9,133 bases of DNA, from contig JAMPEH010000078.1 of NCBI GenBank assembly GCA_023665245.1, forward strand, positions 1-9,133, written 5' to 3'. Shown here one piece after another: positions 717 through 9,133 of the stretch. The notes under the pieces were generated by a model. That model was given only the letters and a program-made list of their open reading frames with translations, had not been told where the DNA came from and ran no database searches. Position numbers and translations under genes: made by a program. Source of the stretch: Muribaculaceae bacterium. GTDB lineage: Bacteria; Pseudomonadota; Alphaproteobacteria; Rs-D84. Within the stretch, counting starts at the first letter, position 1. Each line of letters opens with the position of its first letter.

Positions 717-750
717 TAACGCAGCAGTCCCAACAGGGCATTGGGCCGCA

Positions 751-776
751 AAAGAAAGGCGCCCCGGAGGGCGCCT
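751..776 (-). terminator. Rho-independent terminator after the coupling protein gene
   Basis: A perfect 7-bp GC stem (769-775 with 758-764, extended by an A-T pair) has a four-base loop and is followed on the minus strand by TTTCTTTT. It begins about 25 bases after the coupling protein stop and just before the next promoter. Confidence 0.88.
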
Positions 777-800
777 CTCATGGTATTGGCATTATGCCTG

Positions 801-3710
801 TCAGGCCGCTTCCCTGCCGCCGAGGATCCAGGCGACACGCTCGGCGAACTTGCCCTGCGCGAACGTCCACTCCCCCTTGTAGCTGCAGAGGAACTTGATG
901 AACTCTTTGGTCACGACGTAGTTGGCCTGCTCCTCGTCGCCGCTTGCCGCGACTTTGGCCTCATGGACGCGGCTGCCTTCTTTCTTGGCCTCTTCAGCCA
1001 GCATCTTCTGCACGTCCTCGTCCTTGGCTTTGTACATGTACACCGTGCCGCTGGCGGACTTGAGCGTGTCGCCCTCGATCCGGAAATTCTCCGGGTCGCG
1101 GGAGAACCCGTTCCAGGTGAACATGTATGCCGCCGACAGGATGGCGTCGTACGCATGGGACACCTGGCCGGTCACGGACATCAGGTCCGACGGGGACAGG
1201 CGGCCGCCCGCGTAGATCTTCTTCTCCATTTCTTTGGCCTTCTTGACCAGCGGGTCGTTCTCAGCGGCCTTTTTGACCGAATCGTCCTGCTTGGCCGAGT
1301 CGGCCGTCGGCGTGGCCTTCGGCTCGGTGTCCAGGACATCGGGGTCCGGGGCCTCCTCCCGCTTGGTCATGTCGACCTCGGGGTTCATGATCTGGGACGC
1401 GATCTCCATGATGGCGTCGGAATACACGTCCACGTCCAGGCGCTGGATCTCGTCATCCGTGAGGCCATAGACGTCCTTGTACCACTTCGCGGCCTTTGCC
1501 GACGCGACGGCCTGGTTCACCCGCTTCTCGAACATAAGCGAGAAATTCGGCTGGTTCTGCTTCACGTCAAAGTCCTTGGCCGTTGACAGGCTGGGGATCG
1601 TCTGCAGCGTGTACTCTTTGCCCGGGTTCGTGATCGTGTTCTTGAACAGGCGCCAGCTCATGGGCAGCGCCGTCTCGTTCCGGTTCCAGATCGGCAGGTC
1701 GCCGGCCCGGAATACGATCGAGTTGCACGGCGGGATCTGCGCAAAGTCGTTGTACGCGATCACCGGCCGCTCCACCGTGCTGACCGTGTAGCTTACCTTG
1801 CCCTCGTTGGCCGTCATCTTGAGCACGGACGTCACGTCCTGCGTGACGGTCTTGGAATCCCGGTACGCGACGTGCATCGTGCCGGACATTTTAGAGAGGG
1901 TCTCAATCATACTGTCGTCCGTGGATTTCAGGAAAACGATATTGCTTGTGTTACCCTGCACAATCTTATCCACCGAATCCCCGTAAACATCCTTAAGTTG
2001 CTGCAAAGTTTGCAATATCAATGTAAACTGCTGTTCCTGCCCCAATCCGATGGACAGCATCGTCTCGAACCCGGAAATGCCGTGGCCCTCAGACTGCAGG
2101 TTGCCCAACTCGTCCAACATATAACGCGTTTTGTATAAAGGTTTTTGATTGCTTTTTGTCATATATGACTGGTCAAAGTTCAGGTCAACCAGCTGCTTGA
2201 TCAGGATCAGGATCAGTTTCGCATATTTCATCAGATGCGGCGGTGTCACTAAGAACACCATCTTACACTTTTCCTGATACCGGGCCGTCAGGGACGTGAA
2301 CACATTCGTCTTCACAGGCCCCCGTTTCAAGACCTCGTCGCGTTTTTTCTTCTTCTCGTCCTCATTCTCGATCCCCTGGAGAGCTTTCGCCACTTCCGTG
2401 ATATTGAGGATCGTGTCCTTGTCAAACGTGCTGGGCGCCGGCTTGTACTTGACGGACCCATCGGCAGCACGGACTTTGATGAGTTCCGTCAGGAACCCGT
2501 TCTTCACGATACGTGTGCCAAGGATCGGGTCCTTCATGTACGTCTTGCCGTCATAGCTGGTCTGGTAGTCCTTCTGGAACTCGAAATAGAACGTCTTGAC
2601 CAGCATCTCGGACCCCGTGTCTTTTAGCCTCAGCCTGATGTACGCCTTGTCGTTCTTGAAACAGCCCTTGAAGAAGCACCGGGCCCAGCCCTCGCGACTG
2701 ACCGTGTCCTCGTGAACGAAGTCCTTGCCCTTGATCGGCTTCTCGAACTTGTCGTCCTCAAACGCGTCCCACAGGCACTGCATGCCGACCAGGTGGTTGG
2801 CTTTTAAATAGTCCATATGGAACCGGACGCCGAACCTGCGCGGGAACGAAAGCCCCGCCAGGTCGACATTCTGGGAAATCGTGCCGCTTGTCAAAGTCGA
2901 GATCGTCGGATCCGTGAAAAAGGACATTGCCGTGATAGCGATTCCATAAACAGATGCGATCATCTTCTCTGCGCCGCCCATGGCCCGCAGCGCGTTGTCC
3001 GCGTTGGTGACCAGCGTCCGCATGGAATTCCGGGGCATCTGCGCCGTGGCGTTGAAGAACAGCCCCAGCATGTCGGACTCTTTCGCGTTGTCCCAGATGG
3101 GCATCTTCTCCATGGCCGCGTTGGACAGCAGGTCCTGCTCTTCCGCCGACAACGGGTGCCCGGCTTCCTCGGCGGCCTTGATCTCGTCAGCCGCCACATG
3201 GCACGGGTCCTGCAGCTTCTTGGAGCTCATCTGGACGAACAGCTGGTAGCAGTTATACAGCGTGACCTTGCCCCACATCTCGTCGATCTTCTGCTCCAGA
3301 ACTTTCTTGTTGACGTTCTTGACCGCCGCGATCCGGCGCATTTCTTTTTCCTCTTCCAGGTAATAGTCGATCAGGCCGTACGCCGCACGCTTGAACGCAT
3401 TGTTCGCGGCATTAGGCCACAGCGGGTCCTCGCCGCCGTCCAGCGGGAAGAAGACCTCGGCGATGTTCTCGACATACATGGCACACTTTGTCGAGTTGCC
3501 ATCGCGTGCTGCGTCTGCGGCAAGACTCAGGGGGTTATAAATATCCGTTTTCATAGGGTTGATCAGATTGAACTGCACGATCGTGAACCCACGTACCGTC
3601 CCCCTGACATAGTTCTTGACCAGGAGCTCGCCCTTCGGGTCGTTGATTACCATGTTGTTCGGCCGGCTTTCGCGGGTCCACATGTCGATCGTCGGCTCAA
3701 TAATTGTTTG
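801..3710 (-). CDS. VirD4/TraG-type coupling protein (T4CP), exon 2
   Basis: This is the 3' exon of a split coupling protein, the ATPase that delivers the relaxase-DNA complex to a type IV secretion channel at the cell membrane. It encodes residues 531-1499 of the joined protein. It opens QTIIEPTIDMW, completing the Walker A motif left at GKG in exon 1. NDPKGEL follows at about 553-559, typical of TraG-like ATPases. A Walker B motif YMLDELGNL lies near 1060-1068, and a Gln-rich motif III (ILQTLQQL) near 1095-1102. Walker A to B spacing is about 530 residues, against roughly 220-270 in VirD4 or TrwB as I recall. A hydrophilic stretch at about 830-1000 looks inserted ahead of the VFLVTPP strand. 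A helical, charged C-terminal extension of about 270 residues follows the ATPase. An ATG at 3683 is in frame but has no ribosome site, so this is not an independent gene. A terminator follows the stop. Confidence 0.9.
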   Translation of the reverse strand, partial: QTIIEPTIDMWTRESRPNNMVINDPKGELLVKNYVRGTVRGFTIVQFNLINPMKTDIYNPLSLAADAARDGNSTKCAMYVENIAEVFFPLDGGEDPLWPNAANNAFKRAAYGLIDYYLEEEKEMRRIAAVKNVNKKVLEQKIDEMWGKVTLYNCYQLFVQMSSKKLQDPCHVAADEIKAAEEAGHPLSAEEQDLLSNAAMEKMPIWDNAKESDMLGLFFNATAQMPRNSMRTLVTNADNALRAMGGAEKMIASVYGIAITAMSFFTDPTISTLTSGTISQNVDLAGLSFPRRFGVRFHMDYLKANHLVGMQCLWDAFEDDKFEKPIKGKDFVHEDTVSREGWARCFFKGCFKNDKAYIRLRLKDTGSEMLVKTFYFEFQKDYQTSYDGKTYMKDPILGTRIVKNGFLTELIKVRAADGSVKYKPAPSTFDKDTILNITEVAKALQGIENEDEKKKKRDEVLKRGPVKTNVFTSLTARYQEKCKMVFLVTPPHLMKYAKLILILIKQLVDLNFDQSYMTKSNQKPLYKTRYMLDELGNLQSEGHGISGFETMLSIGLGQEQQFTLILQTLQQLKDVYGDSVDKIVQGNTSNIVFLKSTDDSMIETLSKMSGTMHVAYRDSKTVTQDVTSVLKMTANEGKVSYTVSTVERPVIAYNDFAQIPPCNSIVFRAGDLPIWNRNETALPMSWRLFKNTITNPGKEYTLQTIPSLSTAKDFDVKQNQPNFSLMFEKRVNQAVASAKAAKWYKDVYGLTDDEIQRLDVDVYSDAIMEIASQIMNPEVDMTKREEAPDPDVLDTEPKATPTADSAKQDDSVKKAAENDPLVKKAKEMEKKIYAGGRLSPSDLMSVTGQVSHAYDAILSAAYMFTWNGFSRDPENFRIEGDTLKSASGTVYMYKAKDEDVQKMLAEEAKKEGSRVHEAKVAASGDEEQANYVVTKEFIKFLCSYKGEWTFAQGKFAERVAWILGGREAA

Positions 3711-3794
3711 ACAAAATCTTCAGGACCGTTCGCAAGTCAGTCCCCGGCAAAATGCCAGCCTGCGCAATTAACGCAGTGTTGAGAGTACATCATA
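3711..3794 (-). other. Group I intron 3' core: S element, P9, P9.1, P9.2
   Basis: After the P8 stem come J8/7 and the P7 3' strand (GATGTACTCT at 3791-3782), then three successive hairpins: CTGCG/CGCAG, CTGGC/GCCGG with an ATTTT loop, and GGACTG/CGGTCC. The tract CTGAAGATTTTGT leads into the exon. The three-hairpin 3' tail is characteristic of IA introns such as td. The stretch has no coding potential. Confidence 0.82.
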
Positions 3795-3824
3795 ATCTTG
3801 TACCCTGAAAATTCAATATGTGTT
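3795..3824 (-). repeat. P8 stem, 3' strand (inverted repeat of 5101-5130)
   Basis: These 30 bases are the reverse complement of 5101-5130 except for one position, which still gives a G-U pair in RNA. The strand contains the last codons and TGA of the endonuclease gene (stop at 3815-3813), so coding sequence and intron structure are fused here. Confidence 0.9.
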
Positions 3825-5021
3825 CTCAGGCAACCAATCTTTTGAGTCCGGACATCCAGCGTCAAACCATTCACGCGCATCTTTAAGCCTCGGAAATTCT
3901 TTTTTATGCCTTACGATTTTACGACTGTCCCAAAAAACCAAATAATTTAGACTCATACGAGCAGCTGCACTACGTTTTTCAACATCTGTCTTCGTCCATG
4001 TTATGATATACTTCTCATATCGCGACGGACGACCTGTATCAAGTCGTATACGATCCGCATTCCCTGACCAGCTTCGCACGATCTGACAGTCACGGGCTGA
4101 ATTGATATCAAACCAATGCCCGCCATGACATTTATCGCCATTCAATTCTATGAAAAGATCGCGTGACCGGATGTAGAAATCCACATGATATGGATATCGG
4201 CGGTCAATGACCGCATTGCGAATAACATCACCCACACCAAATCTTGCAACAAGCATCTCATACAACGCATCTTCAGGCATAGACGTATTCAACGTACCAT
4301 GCGCCGCACGATTTGAAAATATCTTTTCACGTATCTCAGGAACTTGAACACTGTTTGCGGCGCCATATCTGGCAATCATGGTTTCCTGTCGATGCATTGC
4401 CGATTTACGCGCGATTGTCAGATCCTGCATAGCAACGGGCACACCGTACCGTTCCATATTTGTATCCGTCCATGTGGCAAGCATACGTTGCTTGATATCT
4501 TCATTCTGATTCGGCTGTTCTACGCCGTATCTGGCAAGCATTGTTTCTGTCCGCTTTCTCCGGCCTTCGGCGATTTTCTCCGGATCTGCCAATGTGTCAA
4601 AAACCTTTTTCTCAAACACATTGTCGACACCGAACCGTTCACGAACAGTGCGTGTCTGCTTTTCTTTCCAACACTTGTCGCGTAAAGACTTATAGGTATC
4701 TGTTCCAATGATGGCCTTGAACACTCTAGGGTAATCGCCAAATCCGCACCCGAGGATCTCAATCTTTTTTGCTCTTTTCGCCATGTCAAGATCCGGATAT
4801 TGTGCAGATATCTGCTCATATGCTGAAATCACTTCATCTACTGTATATCTGGATGATATATACTCGATCTGATGCCTGATAATGTCAGTCTTTGTATAGA
4901 TACGACCAATGGCACGCAATCGCTTCAGCGTCGACTGCACGGAAAGCCCTGTGCGGCGTTTTATATACTCACCATTGAATCCTCGCAAATAGAATTCTTC
5001 AGCCTTTTCTAACTTTCCCAT
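3813..5021 (-). CDS. Intron-encoded putative homing endonuclease, PD-(D/E)XK-like
   Basis: The gene encodes 402 aa; the ATG at 5021 is preceded by AGGAGG at 5032-5027. The role inferred is to cut intronless copies of the coupling protein gene so that the intron is copied in. The N-terminus (about 5-40) looks like a helix-turn-helix (FYLRGFNGEYIKRRTGLS). The middle has at least four spaced repeats built on R-[YF]-G-[VA] at about 129, 164, 191 and 218, a pattern seen in phage homing endonucleases as likely DNA-binding repeats. The C-terminus has a nuclease-like core: HVDFYI (D281), FIELNG (E292, N294) and HGGHWFD (300-305), then TWTKTDVEKR and LNYLVFW. D281 and E292 fit the metal-binding positions of a Vsr/PD-(D/E)XK fold, but the usual Lys two residues after the Glu is Asn. 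No LAGLIDADG, HNH or GIY-YIG motif is visible. The gene is clearly more A+T-rich than the exons, indicating separate origin. Confidence 0.83.
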   Translation of the reverse strand: MGKLEKAEEFYLRGFNGEYIKRRTGLSVQSTLKRLRAIGRIYTKTDIIRHQIEYISSRYTVDEVISAYEQISAQYPDLDMAKRAKKIEILGCGFGDYPRVFKAIIGTDTYKSLRDKCWKEKQTRTVRERFGVDNVFEKKVFDTLADPEKIAEGRRKRTETMLARYGVEQPNQNEDIKQRMLATWTDTNMERYGVPVAMQDLTIARKSAMHRQETMIARYGAANSVQVPEIREKIFSNRAAHGTLNTSMPEDALYEMLVARFGVGDVIRNAVIDRRYPYHVDFYIRSRDLFIELNGDKCHGGHWFDINSARDCQIVRSWSGNADRIRLDTGRPSRYEKYIITWTKTDVEKRSAAARMSLNYLVFWDSRKIVRHKKEFPRLKDAREWFDAGCPDSKDWLPENTY

Positions 5022-5026
5022 AACAG

Positions 5027-5032
5027 CCTCCT
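5027..5032 (-). promoter_or_regulatory. Ribosome binding site of the endonuclease gene
   Basis: AGGAGG lies five bases before the ATG at 5021. It sits inside the P8 loop, outside the stem, so intron folding alone should not hide it. Confidence 0.8.
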
Positions 5033-5065
5033 GCTACAGTTATTATAGTTTGTCCTTTACACATA

Positions 5066-5094
5066 ATTGTAACATGGGCTCCTGCAAATGTCAA
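5066..5094 (-). promoter_or_regulatory. Promoter of the endonuclease gene inside the intron
   Basis: TTGACA (5094-5089), a 17-base spacer and TACAAT (5071-5066) match eleven of twelve consensus positions. It lies just inside the P8 stem and about 45 bases before the endonuclease ATG. The endonuclease can thus be made from an RNA that lacks the 5' half of the intron, independently of coupling protein transcription and splicing. Confidence 0.85.
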
Positions 5095-5100
5095 TATTAA

Positions 5101-5130
5101 AACACATATTGAATTTTCAAGGTACAAGAT
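5101..5130 (-). repeat. P8 stem, 5' strand (inverted repeat of 3795-3824)
   Basis: This is the 5' arm of the long stem that loops the endonuclease gene out of the intron core; it pairs with 3795-3824 over 30 bases with one wobble. It extends by about two further pairs toward the loop. Confidence 0.9.
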
Positions 5131-5463
5131 ACAGATTTTTCTTCCGCCCTTGGCTTGCGGCTTTACTTCCCCGAATATACCGGATCTGGGTGCCGTCGCC
5201 GGCATCCCTCCCCCACAAGGGGCTACTCGTTGAACCTTCCGCATGGCTGTTGCAGCTTTAGCGGAGTGGCTGCTAAAGGGCCATTAAACGCCTGTTTAGG
5301 GTTTAACCATGCAGGCATCCCGTCCATTGTTTCTGTTTTCACAACCTGCCATTCCTGGCCAGCACAGGCTTTCACCCCACTGTCTCGGTGGACGGGCCTT
5401 AGGCCTTCGCAAGCAATTAACCTGTTAGGACCAGCTTGTCGCCAAACTGGCCGGGCCACACTC
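5131..5463 (-). other. Group I intron 5' core: P1 to P7 and P7.1/P7.2-like hairpins
   Basis: This stretch has no gene. It holds the internal guide (5461-5453), P2, a 7-bp hairpin (5278-5272 with 5262-5256), the R-like element, a CCCC/GGGG hairpin and a GC-rich GCGA-loop hairpin. GUGUG at 5461-5457 can pair with the first five bases of exon 2 (CAAAC) at four of five positions, as a P10 helix. Read-through translation from exon 1 stops at 5425, after 12 intron-coded residues. Confidence 0.82.
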
Positions 5464-7053
5464 ACCCTTACCTGCGCGCGTAATCGCGAGCACCATAGTG
5501 TTGACGGGCGCCGTGTCGACAATATAAATACCGCCCGGCCGCTGCGGCTCGTACAGCGGGAACGTCCAGTCGCCGTTGATCAGCTCGGCGACCGTGTCAT
5601 AGTCCCGCAGCTTGTCCAGGTTCTCGTTCCCGGGGTTGTACGGGATGTCCGTCGTGTCGAAATACACCCGGTACGGCCTCCCCTCCGGGTCCTTGCCTTT
5701 CAGGGTCTTGGACGAGTCAAACAGGCCTTCCGTGAACTCATTGTCGATCAGCGGGACTTCGACCGTCAGGGGCTCGCCGTCATCGTCACGCAAGATGTCG
5801 CCCTTGTAGACCTCGACATCGCCGTCTTCGTCTAAAATGTCCTTCTTGGCCCGCTTGGCGATCTTGATCTTTTTCAGGCCCTTGTTCGTGATCGCCTGGT
5901 GGGATATCATGCTGGACACCATGACTGAGCTGTGCGCGCCGACGTCCGGGAAGATGTCATATGCCGCGTGGATCTCCTCCGGCATCTGGAGCCGGGAGTC
6001 ATCGTGGTGCTCGTTGATGTCGGACCGGTCCGCCATCAGGTTCTCAGCCTTCAGGTTTTTCGCCATGACCAGGTACAGCACCGCGAACACGATGCCGCCG
6101 GCCAGGATCGAGAAGAACAATTTCAGCGGCGTGGGCCGCATGTCCGTGAAGCGCTCGTGGTTCCGCTGCCCCGTCGTGTCGACCAGCTTCCCGCGGTTCA
6201 GCCTGACCCACTGGTACTTATTGCCCTGCGTCTCGCATCCGTATTTCGACAAATACACCGGGTCCGTGATGTCGCCTGTCAATAAAATCTCATCCCCGGA
6301 GCTGGTCTTCCCATCAGGGTCGAAATACGCGGCCACAGCGTCCGGCGTGTAAACGTAACCGTGGCCGTCCAGCTTCCCCAGGTACGTGCCATGCTCCGTG
6401 CCGAGCTCGGGCAGCAGCCTGAGATAAACCTGCGGCGTCTGGCCGTCGACCGTGCCGAGGCCGGCCATGCCGCCGATTGCCGAGTACACCTGCTGGCCGT
6501 ATTCGTCATAGACGGGCTCGTACCCGTCGGAATAGACCAGGGACCCGTCATCGGCATAATAAGCCAGGTTGCAGCCTGTGTACGCCGGCCATTTGCTGTT
6601 CGTGATGTCCGTCAGGTACCCCGTCTTTTTGTTGACGATGTACTTGCACGACGTGACCCGCATTTCCGGCTCGCCCGTCTCCTGGTTATAAACCTGCATG
6701 CCGTACTCGTCCAGGAGCGGCTGCTCGTCACGGACCGTAACGTACTGATAGTCGGACTTCGCGCCGTCGTTCTTGTAGAATACCCGGTACCACCCGGCGT
6801 TGATCCCGTCTGCCACGCCGGTCTTCTCGACGAAGCCGATCAGCACCCAGAACAGGACCGCGACAAGCAGGACGATCGGGATGATGATGGCCATGCGGCT
6901 CTTCATCGTCGTCTTCTTGGCAGCATAGGTCCGCTCCACCTGCTGCTGGTCATGTACGTTCCGGTACCTGGCGGTGTCGGACACGTCCTGGGCCTGGATC
7001 TTCCCATATGTGGTCGTCGTGTCCGGCTTCCTGCGTTTCTTTTCCTTTGCCAT
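5464..7053 (-). CDS. VirD4/TraG-type coupling protein (T4CP), exon 1
   Basis: Residues 1-530 of the coupling protein. The ATG at 7053 follows AAAGGAGG at 7074-7067, and the upstream RHH gene ends five bases before it, so the two are co-transcribed. The N-terminus is basic. Membrane segments lie at about 54-74 and 309-329, with Lys/Arg before the first and after the second, so both ends face the cytoplasm. The roughly 234 residues between them should lie outside the membrane, far more than the short loop of VirD4 or TrwB. This loop contains two copies of a DEYGxQVY motif (about 115-122 and 183-190). A cytoplasmic region of about 180 residues then leads to VLAITRAGKG (521-530), the start of Walker A. 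The frame then enters the intron. Without splicing the product ends ECGPASLATSWS (542 aa) and lacks a working ATPase. Confidence 0.9.
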
Positions 7054-7058
7054 ATTGC

Positions 7059-7286
7059 CTAAGTAACCTCCTTTGCCAGATTTTGCCGGCTGGCTTTCCC
7101 GCCAGCCCCTCCCCCGCCTGGTTTGGCGTCCGGGCAGCGCTGCCGTTCCAGATATTCCTCCAGTGCCCGCTCAACGGTGAACGTCTTCGGGACGCCCGTC
7201 CTCGAATTATGCTCTCCGAGCTGCGCAGCAATGTCAGAGCGGATCTTGAACGACATAGGGACATAGTCTTTCGTTTTCGCGGCCAT
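7059..7286 (-). CDS. Small ribbon-helix-helix DNA-binding protein (75 aa)
   Basis: The ATG at 7286 follows AAAAAGGAGG (7302-7293). The protein has the RHH pattern: a short strand with alternating residues (VPMSFKIRSD, about 9-18), helix A (IAAQLGEHNSRTG), a turn with Thr/Val, and helix B (VERALEEYLERQ, about 38-49). A Gly-rich linker and a basic tail follow (about 57-75). RHH proteins of this size act as repressors or as accessory DNA-binding proteins at transfer origins. Being first in the coupling protein transcript, it may autoregulate the promoter at 7340-7368. The exact target cannot be told. Confidence 0.78.
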   Translation of the reverse strand: MAAKTKDYVPMSFKIRSDIAAQLGEHNSRTGVPKTFTVERALEEYLERQRCPDAKPGGGGAGGKASRQNLAKEVT

Positions 7287-7432: not shown

Positions 7433-7639
7433 TTACGGCCCGCCGGCCTGTTTCAGGGTCGCCCCGCAGTAGCTCAGGATCGCCCGCTCGATGGCTTTTG
7501 TCTTGGACTGGCCCGTAATCTGGCAATGGGCCTGCAGCGCGTTATAGGCGTCCTGCTCGATGTACGCGCTGACGAGCGTCCCTGACTTCTTCGGTTTCCG
7601 GCCGGGGTTCTTATCCGCCCCGGATCTGTCACTGCCCAT
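7433..7639 (-). CDS. Small ribbon-helix-helix protein (68 aa)
   Basis: The start chosen is the ATG at 7639, preceded by an AGGAAGGGGG-type ribosome site. Longer in-frame starts would lie deep inside the upstream gene and give a low-complexity Arg/Ser/Thr stretch typical of a shadow frame. The gene overlaps the upstream stop by 11 bases, suggesting coupled translation. The basic N-terminus (MGSDRSGADKNPGRKPKKSG) is followed by a strand (TLVSAYIEQD), helix A (AYNALQAHCQITG) and helix B beginning SKTKAIERAILSY, the RHH layout with the G-x-S-K-T turn. It is probably a DNA-binding regulator or relaxosome-type accessory factor. It is not obviously a close copy of the 75-aa RHH protein. Confidence 0.75.
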   Translation of the reverse strand: MGSDRSGADKNPGRKPKKSGTLVSAYIEQDAYNALQAHCQITGQSKTKAIERAILSYCGATLKQAGGP

Positions 7640-9133
7640 CCTGCTGGCCCCCTTCCTGGCTGTCAGAGCCGTCCAGCTGGACCTCCTCGCCGTTGATGAA
7701 GTAATGGTACTCGGGCGTCTGCTCCAGCTGCTCCTGGGCCTGCTGGTTCGCGAGCCCTTCCGCCTGCCTGTCAACGGCGTCCTGGGCCGACCCGGCCATG
7801 ATCACGCAGCCGATGATGATGCCTACGGAAAGGGCCGCCACGAGCCCGACCGCCACACTGGTGATCTTGATCTTATCCGTGTACTTATGCAGCCGCTCCA
7901 GGTGGTGCGCACGCTCGTCCCAGGCGTCCCGCTCAGACTGGACCATCTCCAGCTGGGTCCTGTACTTGCTCTCGATCTCGCTGTCCAGGTTGATGAACTT
8001 GTGGGTCATCTCCTCCATGCGGGTGTCGGCCTGCTCCAGCTGCTGGTTCAGGAGGCGGATCTCTTCGTCCTTATGGCCCATCTCTTTCATGTGCGCCGCG
8101 TTGAGCTCAGCAACGATATGGGCGTGCTGGTCCCGCAGGGAGTTCACAAAGTTCTCGTGCTCCATGGCGGCCTTGTCGCTCTCGCCCCGGATCGCGGCCA
8201 GCTTCGCCTCGAAGTCGACGCGGGCCCGCTCCATGGCAGCAGCGGCTTCGGTATTTGCCTGGGCGACGGCGTTCTCCCGGCGCAGGCGCTCCATGTCCGT
8301 CGTGACGCGGGCCTCATCCGCCGCCATGTGCTCGTTCATGTAGTCGACGATCACGGCCTGAAGGCGGGCATATTCCTGGCGCTCCATGGCGATCATCTTG
8401 GTATATTCGTCCTTGCAGAGCTTCAGAGCCTCGGAGATGCCCGCGTCCAGCTGGCGCTTCGCCTCGGCACGCCGCTCGTCATTCAGGTTCTCGACCGCCG
8501 CGACATACTCGGCTTCCAGGGCGTTGCGCAGGTCCGTGTCGATCTGCCGGATCTCTTCCTCATGGCGCTTGTAGAACTGGTTGATGTAGTTCGCCTGGGC
8601 CTGGTTGGCCGCATTGTCCATGGCCGCCCGCATGCCCTTCTGGTACGCATCTTCATTCTCTTTCTTATAGGCCTCGGCAGTGGCCGGCAGGTTCGCAATG
8701 GCGTCTTCTTTGTTTTTCTTGATCGCCGCCAGGGTGAACCCAAACCGGGACTCCGGGCTGTCCGTCGACACGGAGCGCGTGATGGACGCGCAGTGGTCCG
8801 TGATGATGGACAGGTACCGCGTGCGCATGATCAGCAGGTTCTCATAGTGCAGCTTGGCAAGCCGGGCGTTGGCGTCGCGCCTTAAATTGTTCACGTATCC
8901 GTCCAGCCACCCGTCGCCCTCTGTCTCCGCAAACGGGATATAGGGGTTGGACTGGAGGAACATGGCGTCGAACGGCTCGGACGAGACCTCCAGCCCCAAG
9001 TCATCGGAATAGTACGTCCTCGTGACATACTTGTCCATGGCCGCCATGTCGAACTGCTGGCGCTGGGGCGCCTGCATGGCCTGCTGCCGCTGGGCGATCT
9101 CCGGGTCCTGCTTCGCCTGGTCGGACGCCGCCT
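7629..9133 (-). CDS. Coiled-coil membrane protein, 3' part only (5' end off the right edge)
   Basis: The frame is open to the window edge. The first visible Met (9077) has no good ribosome site and 18 in-frame codons precede it, so the true start is probably outside. Numbered from that Met, the protein has an N-terminal region with YYSDDLGLEVSSEPFDAMF, then a long helical, Glu/Lys/Ala/Gln-rich stretch (about 65-400) of coiled-coil character. One membrane segment follows (about 405-427, ITSVAVGLVAALSVGIIIG). A tail of about 55 residues (EYHYFINGEEVQLDG, then a Gln/Gly/Ser-rich end) should lie outside, with Lys before the segment favouring the bulk inside. I do not recognise the family. Its position beside a coupling protein suggests a structural part of the transfer apparatus; a phage-like tape-measure or membrane-tethered scaffold is an alternative. 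It is co-transcribed with the 68-aa RHH gene. Confidence 0.82.
   Translation of the reverse strand, partial: AASDQAKQDPEIAQRQQAMQAPQRQQFDMAAMDKYVTRTYYSDDLGLEVSSEPFDAMFLQSNPYIPFAETEGDGWLDGYVNNLRRDANARLAKLHYENLLIMRTRYLSIITDHCASITRSVSTDSPESRFGFTLAAIKKNKEDAIANLPATAEAYKKENEDAYQKGMRAAMDNAANQAQANYINQFYKRHEEEIRQIDTDLRNALEAEYVAAVENLNDERRAEAKRQLDAGISEALKLCKDEYTKMIAMERQEYARLQAVIVDYMNEHMAADEARVTTDMERLRRENAVAQANTEAAAAMERARVDFEAKLAAIRGESDKAAMEHENFVNSLRDQHAHIVAELNAAHMKEMGHKDEEIRLLNQQLEQADTRMEEMTHKFINLDSEIESKYRTQLEMVQSERDAWDERAHHLERLHKYTDKIKITSVAVGLVAALSVGIIIGCVIMAGSAQDAVDRQAEGLANQQAQEQLEQTPEYHYFINGEEVQLDGSDSQEGGQQDGQ

Follow-up and report, generated by a model that had tools for sequence, protein, structure and literature searches.

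A very probable mobile group I intron within the Walker A motif of a conjugative coupling-protein gene

The 9,133-nucleotide (nt) stretch of contig JAMPEH010000078.1 analyzed here (assembly GCA_023665245.1, a Muribaculaceae bacterium record; hereafter "the window") encodes, on its minus strand, a VirD4/TraG-type coupling protein as two open reading frame (ORF) halves (5425-7053 and 801-3683) on either side of a 1753-nt insert, which falls between GKG and QT of the Walker A motif. Judged from its sequence, this insert is very probably a mobile group I intron lodged in the codons for the Walker A motif of this conjugative coupling protein. The motor would then be made only if the RNA excises itself, and it would follow from this anatomy that DNA transfer is tied to splicing. 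Relative to what is known, it seems to be a group I homing intron in an apparently new kind of host gene. With less assurance, though still as the likelier outcome, we propose that in the subfamily to which it belongs the 5' cut lies a base upstream of the P1 U.G pair (exon G | intron U), against the textbook rule, and that this subfamily has colonised coupling-protein ATPase motifs (Walker A; Walker B in one contig; a 33-nt micro-exon in one gene), so that DNA transfer would depend on several splicing events.

The interrupted gene is recognizable from its C-terminal half, which in a Pfam scan matches PF02534 (E=1.3e-19), PF12696 (E=8.3e-15) and also PF10412, the T4SS-DNA_transf and TraG-D_C domains exceeding the Pfam cut-off; the NCBIfam CD1115 model gave 128 of 250 bits, under its cut-off. 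The N-terminal half ends in "AGK" and the C-terminal half starts with "QT," and when the halves are aligned separately with seven uninterrupted relatives (L001-L006 from genome contigs and L009, a plasmid copy), a single residue, the split Gly, lies between them in all seven. The empty sites read LAITRAGKGQT in L001-L005 and IAITRAGKGQR in L006, i.e., the Walker A motif that the insert divides as TRAGKG|QT is whole in intact relatives. An earlier reading of this DNA from its letters (the sequence-only reading) had proposed the split at GKG|QT and an insert of 1753 nt, and as a check a search for intact homologues of a joined 1499-amino-acid (aa) protein; the alignments and a count bear out the first two, and the seven relatives uninterrupted at the site supply the third. 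Exon 1 (5465..7053; 529 codons plus positions 1 and 2 of the split Gly codon) and exon 2 (801..3711; the remainder of the TraG/VirD4 ATPase, with PF02534, PF12696 and a Walker B-like DELGN), both on the minus strand, total 4500 nt, or 1499 codons and a stop, and their frames fit exactly. Both exons and the endonuclease gene carried by the insert are open, and G+C at third codon positions (GC3) is high in both exons.

The identity of the insert was reached through its distant relatives. A DNA search with 5022-5500 matched 16 phage records over a core of 39-46 nt, and this match lengthens to take in the 5' portion of the insert in an alignment with Staphylococcus phage PMBT8 and Enterococcus phage phiEF17H. 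The pattern taken from that alignment drew at least 120 stretches of viral-contig DNA, and 31 segments were aligned with the window by motif spacing. For a subfamily model built without the window, 19 introns from phages and viral contigs were selected as those nearest in type (17 of the 31 aligned segments plus L173 and L175), the remaining aligned segments being excluded. A profile built without the window detects the window copy at E=2.8e-24, and a covariance model likewise built without it matches the window intron along the entire model at 121.7 bits (E=5.4e-23); because of these two values, the match is not a chance one. Of the 36 model pairs, 35 are standard in the window. In the alignment of 20 rows, 97.7% of 699 cells pair, and changes on both sides occur in 25 of 35 pairs. 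Such double changes fill 192 cells against a shuffled mean of 56.4 and are lost when partners are slid, though these 20 rows are also the source of the structure, which favours it over the slid versions; further pair types show a less clear excess (63 versus 55.3 in shuffles, with 63 reached by 6 of 500 shuffles). With this covarying predicted core the insert is a group I intron, as the sequence-only reading had held. That it might instead be a group II intron or an insertion sequence has a precedent of sorts in the group II matches that occur elsewhere in relatives of the coupling-protein gene (L212 and L213), but the Rfam scan of the whole window returned no group II intron, none of the six window ORFs scanned with Pfam has a transposase domain, and the idea is refuted at the sequence level because the covariance model matches a group I core; we give it practically no chance.

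The predicted fold, all on the minus strand, contains the group I core, i.e., P/Q (P4), R/S (P7) and the P3-P8 catalytic domain. In P1 (5453..5467), exon GGG and a U pair with GCCC of the internal guide sequence, the U.G pair falling at intron base 1; P2 (5431..5450) is a hairpin of eight pairs with a GCGA loop. The 5' strand of P3 (ACAG, 5422..5425) pairs with CTGT at 5131..5134, and both strands co-vary across the tabulated sibling introns. P4 (5412-5415 with 5271-5274; span 5271..5415) encloses P5 to P5d, which, like P6, were placed by alignment and covariation: P5 (5402-5405/5279-5282), P5a (5389-5396/5319-5326), P5b (5374-5377/5366-5369), P5c (5341-5343/5334-5336), P5d (5312-5316/5290-5294), P6 (5268-5269/5235-5236; span 5235..5269), P6a (5261-5265/5238-5242) and P6b (5253-5256/5246-5249). 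The 5' strand of P7 (GAGTA, 5224..5228, within the R motif CAACGAGTA) pairs with TACTC of the S motif (3783..3787). This GAGUA/UACUC differs on both sides from the usual GACUA/UAGUC—the 20 tabulated sibling rows have GACTA in 19, and GAGTA in L062 only, which carries the same swap—and it retains the G-C pair at the end of P7, which we take to be the G-binding pair. P7.1 (5219-5222/5211-5214) and P7.2 (5157-5160/5144-5147), together spanning 5144..5222, were placed by pairing and by the siblings. P8 consists of 20 pairs that flank the endonuclease gene: its 5' strand (5110..5130) has two 10-bp stretches that pair with 3795-3804 and 3806-3815, and its 3' strand (3795..3815) overlaps the endonuclease stop codon. 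P9 (3772-3776/3760-3764), P9.1 (3754-3758/3744-3748) and P9.2 (3738-3743/3723-3728), with a joint span of 3723..3776, are single-sequence pairings.

Subgroup IA is defined by P7.1 and P7.2 between the 5' strand of P7 and the 3' strand of P3. By these two elements alone the predicted window fold fits that subgroup, with which (as with RF00028) it has in common the P, Q, R and S core. The sequence-only reading had called the intron td-like IA; its IA part agrees with P7.1 and P7.2, whereas the resemblance to td in particular does not hold, as the intron belongs to a phage and viral-contig subfamily with an extended P5, presumably unlike the layout of T4 td. Members of this subfamily, which have the extended P5 and P7.1/P7.2, were found in genes of Staphylococcus and Enterococcus phages and in viral contigs. 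The major tail gene introns of Sextaecvirus phages (e.g., PMBT8) and the phiEF17H element belong to it by the P5 extension motif, P6, P7.1/P7.2 and P3/P7 covariation. They differ from the window in host gene (a phage structural gene rather than a coupling protein), in the ORFs of PMBT8 intron 1 and phiEF17H (best match phrog_559, a family other than that of the window ORF) and in lacking the longer P7.1 extension and GAGUA/UACUC P7 of the window. In one viral contig with a group I intron core (L108, 2259-2446), a RAGATH-18 RNA match of 60.6 bits lies about 300 bases away (1879-1968).

Several observations weigh against reading the insert as a functional group I intron. The Rfam group I model RF00028 has no match in the whole window at E<=1, nor in 5010-5500 at E<=10; the sequence-only reading had offered such a match as its check and its absence as a refutation, an outcome that, taken literally, did come about with Rfam, the subfamily model alone detecting the intron. 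Among 11 sibling introns scanned, RF00028 matches two, both below its cut-off of 50 bits (L045, 48.5 bits, E=1.8e-9; PMBT8 intron 2, 36.3 bits, E=5e-6), and has no match in the other nine (PMBT8 introns 1 and 5, the latter by its 5' part, phiEF17H, L062, L074, L108, L212, L213 and L132). The extension after P7.1 in the window has a length absent from the aligned siblings. Finally, a U-ending exon combined with a terminal omega G would shift the window frame by one base, so that one of the two splice sites, 5' or 3', has to be atypical. The extension and the failure with Rfam would suit a degenerate remnant that does not splice, leaving a dead gene whose halves are pseudogene pieces. We hold this to be improbable, given 35 of 36 standard model pairs, open exons and endonuclease, exact frames and high GC3 in both exons. 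As RF00028 missed nine of 11 siblings, Rfam overlooks most of this intron subfamily, the window copy being one more below its detection. Since gene callers also split such coupling proteins, conjugative elements that carry the intron may be scored as defective.

The exact ends of the intron cannot be read from the window. The same T stands at both ends of the insert, so that 3711-5463 and 3712-5464 describe one insert; a U.G pair is present in P1, and the side of the U on which the cut falls is ambiguous. In the textbook arrangement, exon 1 ends in the U of this pair and the intron in omega G. Our preference is 3712..5464 on the minus strand, which runs from T5464 to G3712: this choice gives the intron a final G, and siblings whose junctions are unambiguous show the same pattern; the sequence-only reading had located the same insert, and the sibling junctions move its boundaries by one base from 3711-5463. 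These junctions were read in the major tail gene of Sextaecvirus phages, where several introns and intact relatives are available. All subfamily introns there (PMBT8 introns 1, 2, 5 and 6, F1 intron 1 and RQ1 intron 1) fit a start at exon G | intron U with a final omega G, as in our reading of the window, and intron 2 of the L212 coupling-protein gene reads GAG|U...G|CCU.

The same intron could alternatively have its 5' site after U5464 and its 3' site after T3711, which in the window yields an identical spliced message. This would keep the U.G pair at the 5' site in the usual way; a BAKA phage intron, according to the portion of PMC3706429 consulted, has an exon 1 that ends in U and an intron that ends in G. 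The two readings differ in six siblings (PMBT8 introns 1, 5 and 6, F1 intron 1, RQ1 intron 1 and L212 intron 2), which represent four separate sites, as three of these introns share one; the readings cannot be told apart in the window, PMBT8 intron 2 or L213 intron 1. For F1 intron 1 and PMBT8 intron 5, two of these six, the usual position gives fully textbook ends, a point in its favour and against the offset cut, and there the residue alone speaks for the latter. In the other four, the usual position needs introns that end in C. Across all six siblings and four sites its product would have Val or Ser at positions that are Ala/Gly or Pro in the intact relatives compared, and only the G|U reading yields the relatives' residue. 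We therefore regard the usual site as unlikely, and splicing in the subfamily seems to be displaced by one base, to a point ahead of the P1 U.G pair. If true, the G|U junction questions how strictly this pair sets the 5' splice site. Within the same tail gene the textbook rule, as we read the junctions, fits PMBT8 introns 3 and 4 (both of which match RF00028), as well as the inserts after Val49 in RQ1 and after Gly109 in F1. An intron made defective by a frame-killing canonical splice was our first suspicion, and was dropped when the siblings showed the same offset. The PMBT8 major tail gene (L007 and L173; about 7.7-12.6 kb) itself holds some six group I introns that fall into two types; its record annotates hypothetical proteins, and a major tail protein is named for the final piece alone.

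The P8 loop encodes, at 3813..5021 on the minus strand, a 402-aa DUF7487 protein with a C-terminal Vsr-like nuclease fold, which is probably a homing endonuclease; the claim that the intron bears an endonuclease stands. Its gene has a Shine-Dalgarno-like AGGAGG, and a sigma-70-like promoter (TTGACA-17-TACAAT, a consensus match only) lies upstream at 5066..5094 on the same strand. In architecture it differs from Vsr/EDxHD-type homing endonucleases, being mostly helical before residue 246. A single-sequence search of viral contigs and a search of plasmids found no close DNA relatives; phages gave only distant ones (43 records), as did viral contigs searched by profile (31 loci, 24-40% identity). 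The genome sets gave matches in 0 of 6, 1 of 391 (weak, 9.7e-4), 0 of 398, 1 of 395 (27% identity) and 1 of 200 genomes (five partial matches, 25-46% identity). Nothing on DUF7487 was found in the open-licence literature searched. Four endonuclease relatives and truncated coupling proteins have longest contigs of identical size (3932, 43358, 265394 and 10409 bases); when 119 sizes were compared with 142, 200 offset controls averaged 0.4 shared sizes with a maximum of 3, although presence on a shared long contig would be no proof of adjacency. In one DUF7487 protein (P0120), the C-terminal part appears, by our impression, to be replaced by phage tail-type sequence, possibly a deletion that joined the intron gene to its exon.

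From these parts we propose a model. The intron RNA would fold and GTP attack between exon G5465 and intron U5464, which with respect to the P1 U.G pair is a base earlier than usual; omega G3712 would mark the 3' splice site, and exon joining would restore GGU-CAA (Gly-Gln) and the 1499-aa ATPase. An unspliced messenger RNA would yield only the N-terminal half with 12 residues encoded by the intron. P-loop alleles that lack the intron would be cut by the endonuclease and receive a copy of the intron, and motif codons unable to drift may make the gene a repeated target.

The coupling-protein gene family does appear to be a repeated intron target. Searches with the truncated N-terminal half gave 142 relatives (the best 120 of 153 and the best 120 of 177 matches, from the 7994 and 7992 word-richest candidates scored), a set that the limit on candidates to 0.55-1.75 times the query length biases toward truncated proteins. 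In this set 48 of the 142 are intact through the P-loop, and 85 end at one of five points around Walker A that recur: PVNTMV (41), AGKG (16; the window site), PVNT plus I (14), QT(V/I)IE (8) and VLAI (6). Six others stop elsewhere (PV, 2; P, AITR, AITRAG and GKGQ, 1 each), and three lack the anchor, two of which depart from the consensus after NTMV. Truncation alone does not equal an intron, and contig ends, frameshifts or other insertions may explain some cases (e.g., P0156 and P0216). At AGKG the tails of P0123, P0126 and P0131 continue into ARPIWRHVGPNELIA or ARFVWRQANPNMLIA, and the window intron in one frame reads ARPVWRQAGPNRLIA. Compared with the six window frames, the tail of P0123 (identical to that of P0126) scores 67 (next best 25) and that of P0131 scores 60 (next best 20), each at the exact intron place, and therefore these three have the window's intron, inserted at the identical position. 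Intron identity is thus shown for three of the 16 AGKG proteins; the shorter tails of P0195 and P0173 gave no informative score. Two tails in unlike reading frames, when compared directly with each other, yielded no alignment, as was to be expected. The Walker A region of coupling proteins is possibly an intron hot spot.

When viral contigs were scanned with the alignment of the N-terminal half, two loci emerged. In the first (L213, an 86,624-base contig), the gene is interrupted after NTMV by a subfamily intron (150.3 bits with model R1) whose ORF is 32% identical to the window endonuclease over 210 residues, and resumes at LAITRAGKGQTVIEP; in the overlapping L132 the same gene is interrupted again, at Walker B (DELG|N; R1, 67.4 bits), by an insert (2290-4233) whose ORF, placed before the ribozyme core match, is 35% identical to the window endonuclease. 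The second locus (L212, 251,549 bases) has an insert after VLAI and a subfamily intron at QTVIE| (R1, 129.3 bits), and what is left between them is a 33-nt Walker A micro-exon (TRAGKGQTVIE). Its first insert (4679-5010) has no group I or group II Rfam match and no R1 match, and R1 has no match in three intact-gene loci (L001, L002 and L009). Further on, both coupling-protein genes have group II intron matches (L212, 7178-7906; L213, 6947-7552) and thus hold both intron groups. The family thereby offers natural intron-plus and intron-minus sites for the study of homing into a conserved ATPase motif on DNA-moving elements.

In the sections of the literature consulted, the group I introns of bacteria occur mainly in genes for RNAs (PMC3984707). 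Those of Bastillevirinae, in the excerpts of PMC11878797, occupy polymerase, terminase, reductase and thymidylate synthase genes; that source also describes a Vsr-type intron nuclease group and phage introns missed by Rfam models. The window intron likewise bears a nuclease and sits in a conserved gene, but no conjugation coupling protein appears among the hosts in those excerpts. The consulted part of PMC2814812 makes no mention of a P-loop or Walker motif, and no case of a group I intron in a coupling protein was found in the sections of open-licence literature on coupling proteins, type IV secretion and conjugative elements.

Genome searches with the coupling-protein region gave some match in 26 of 200 genomes and, at E<=1e-10, in 3 of 299; apart from the query source genomes (both intact), all listed matches are at most 36% identical, and one distant match (L189) has internal stops. 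Just downstream of the coupling-protein stop codon, a strong GC hairpin (window 748-778) is probably a terminator, and weak Rfam matches to ctRNA_p42d and NsiR4 at 748-800, below cut-off, resemble this hairpin. Upstream of the gene lie a small ribbon-helix-helix protein (7059-7286) and a large, coiled-coil-looking protein (7629-9131).
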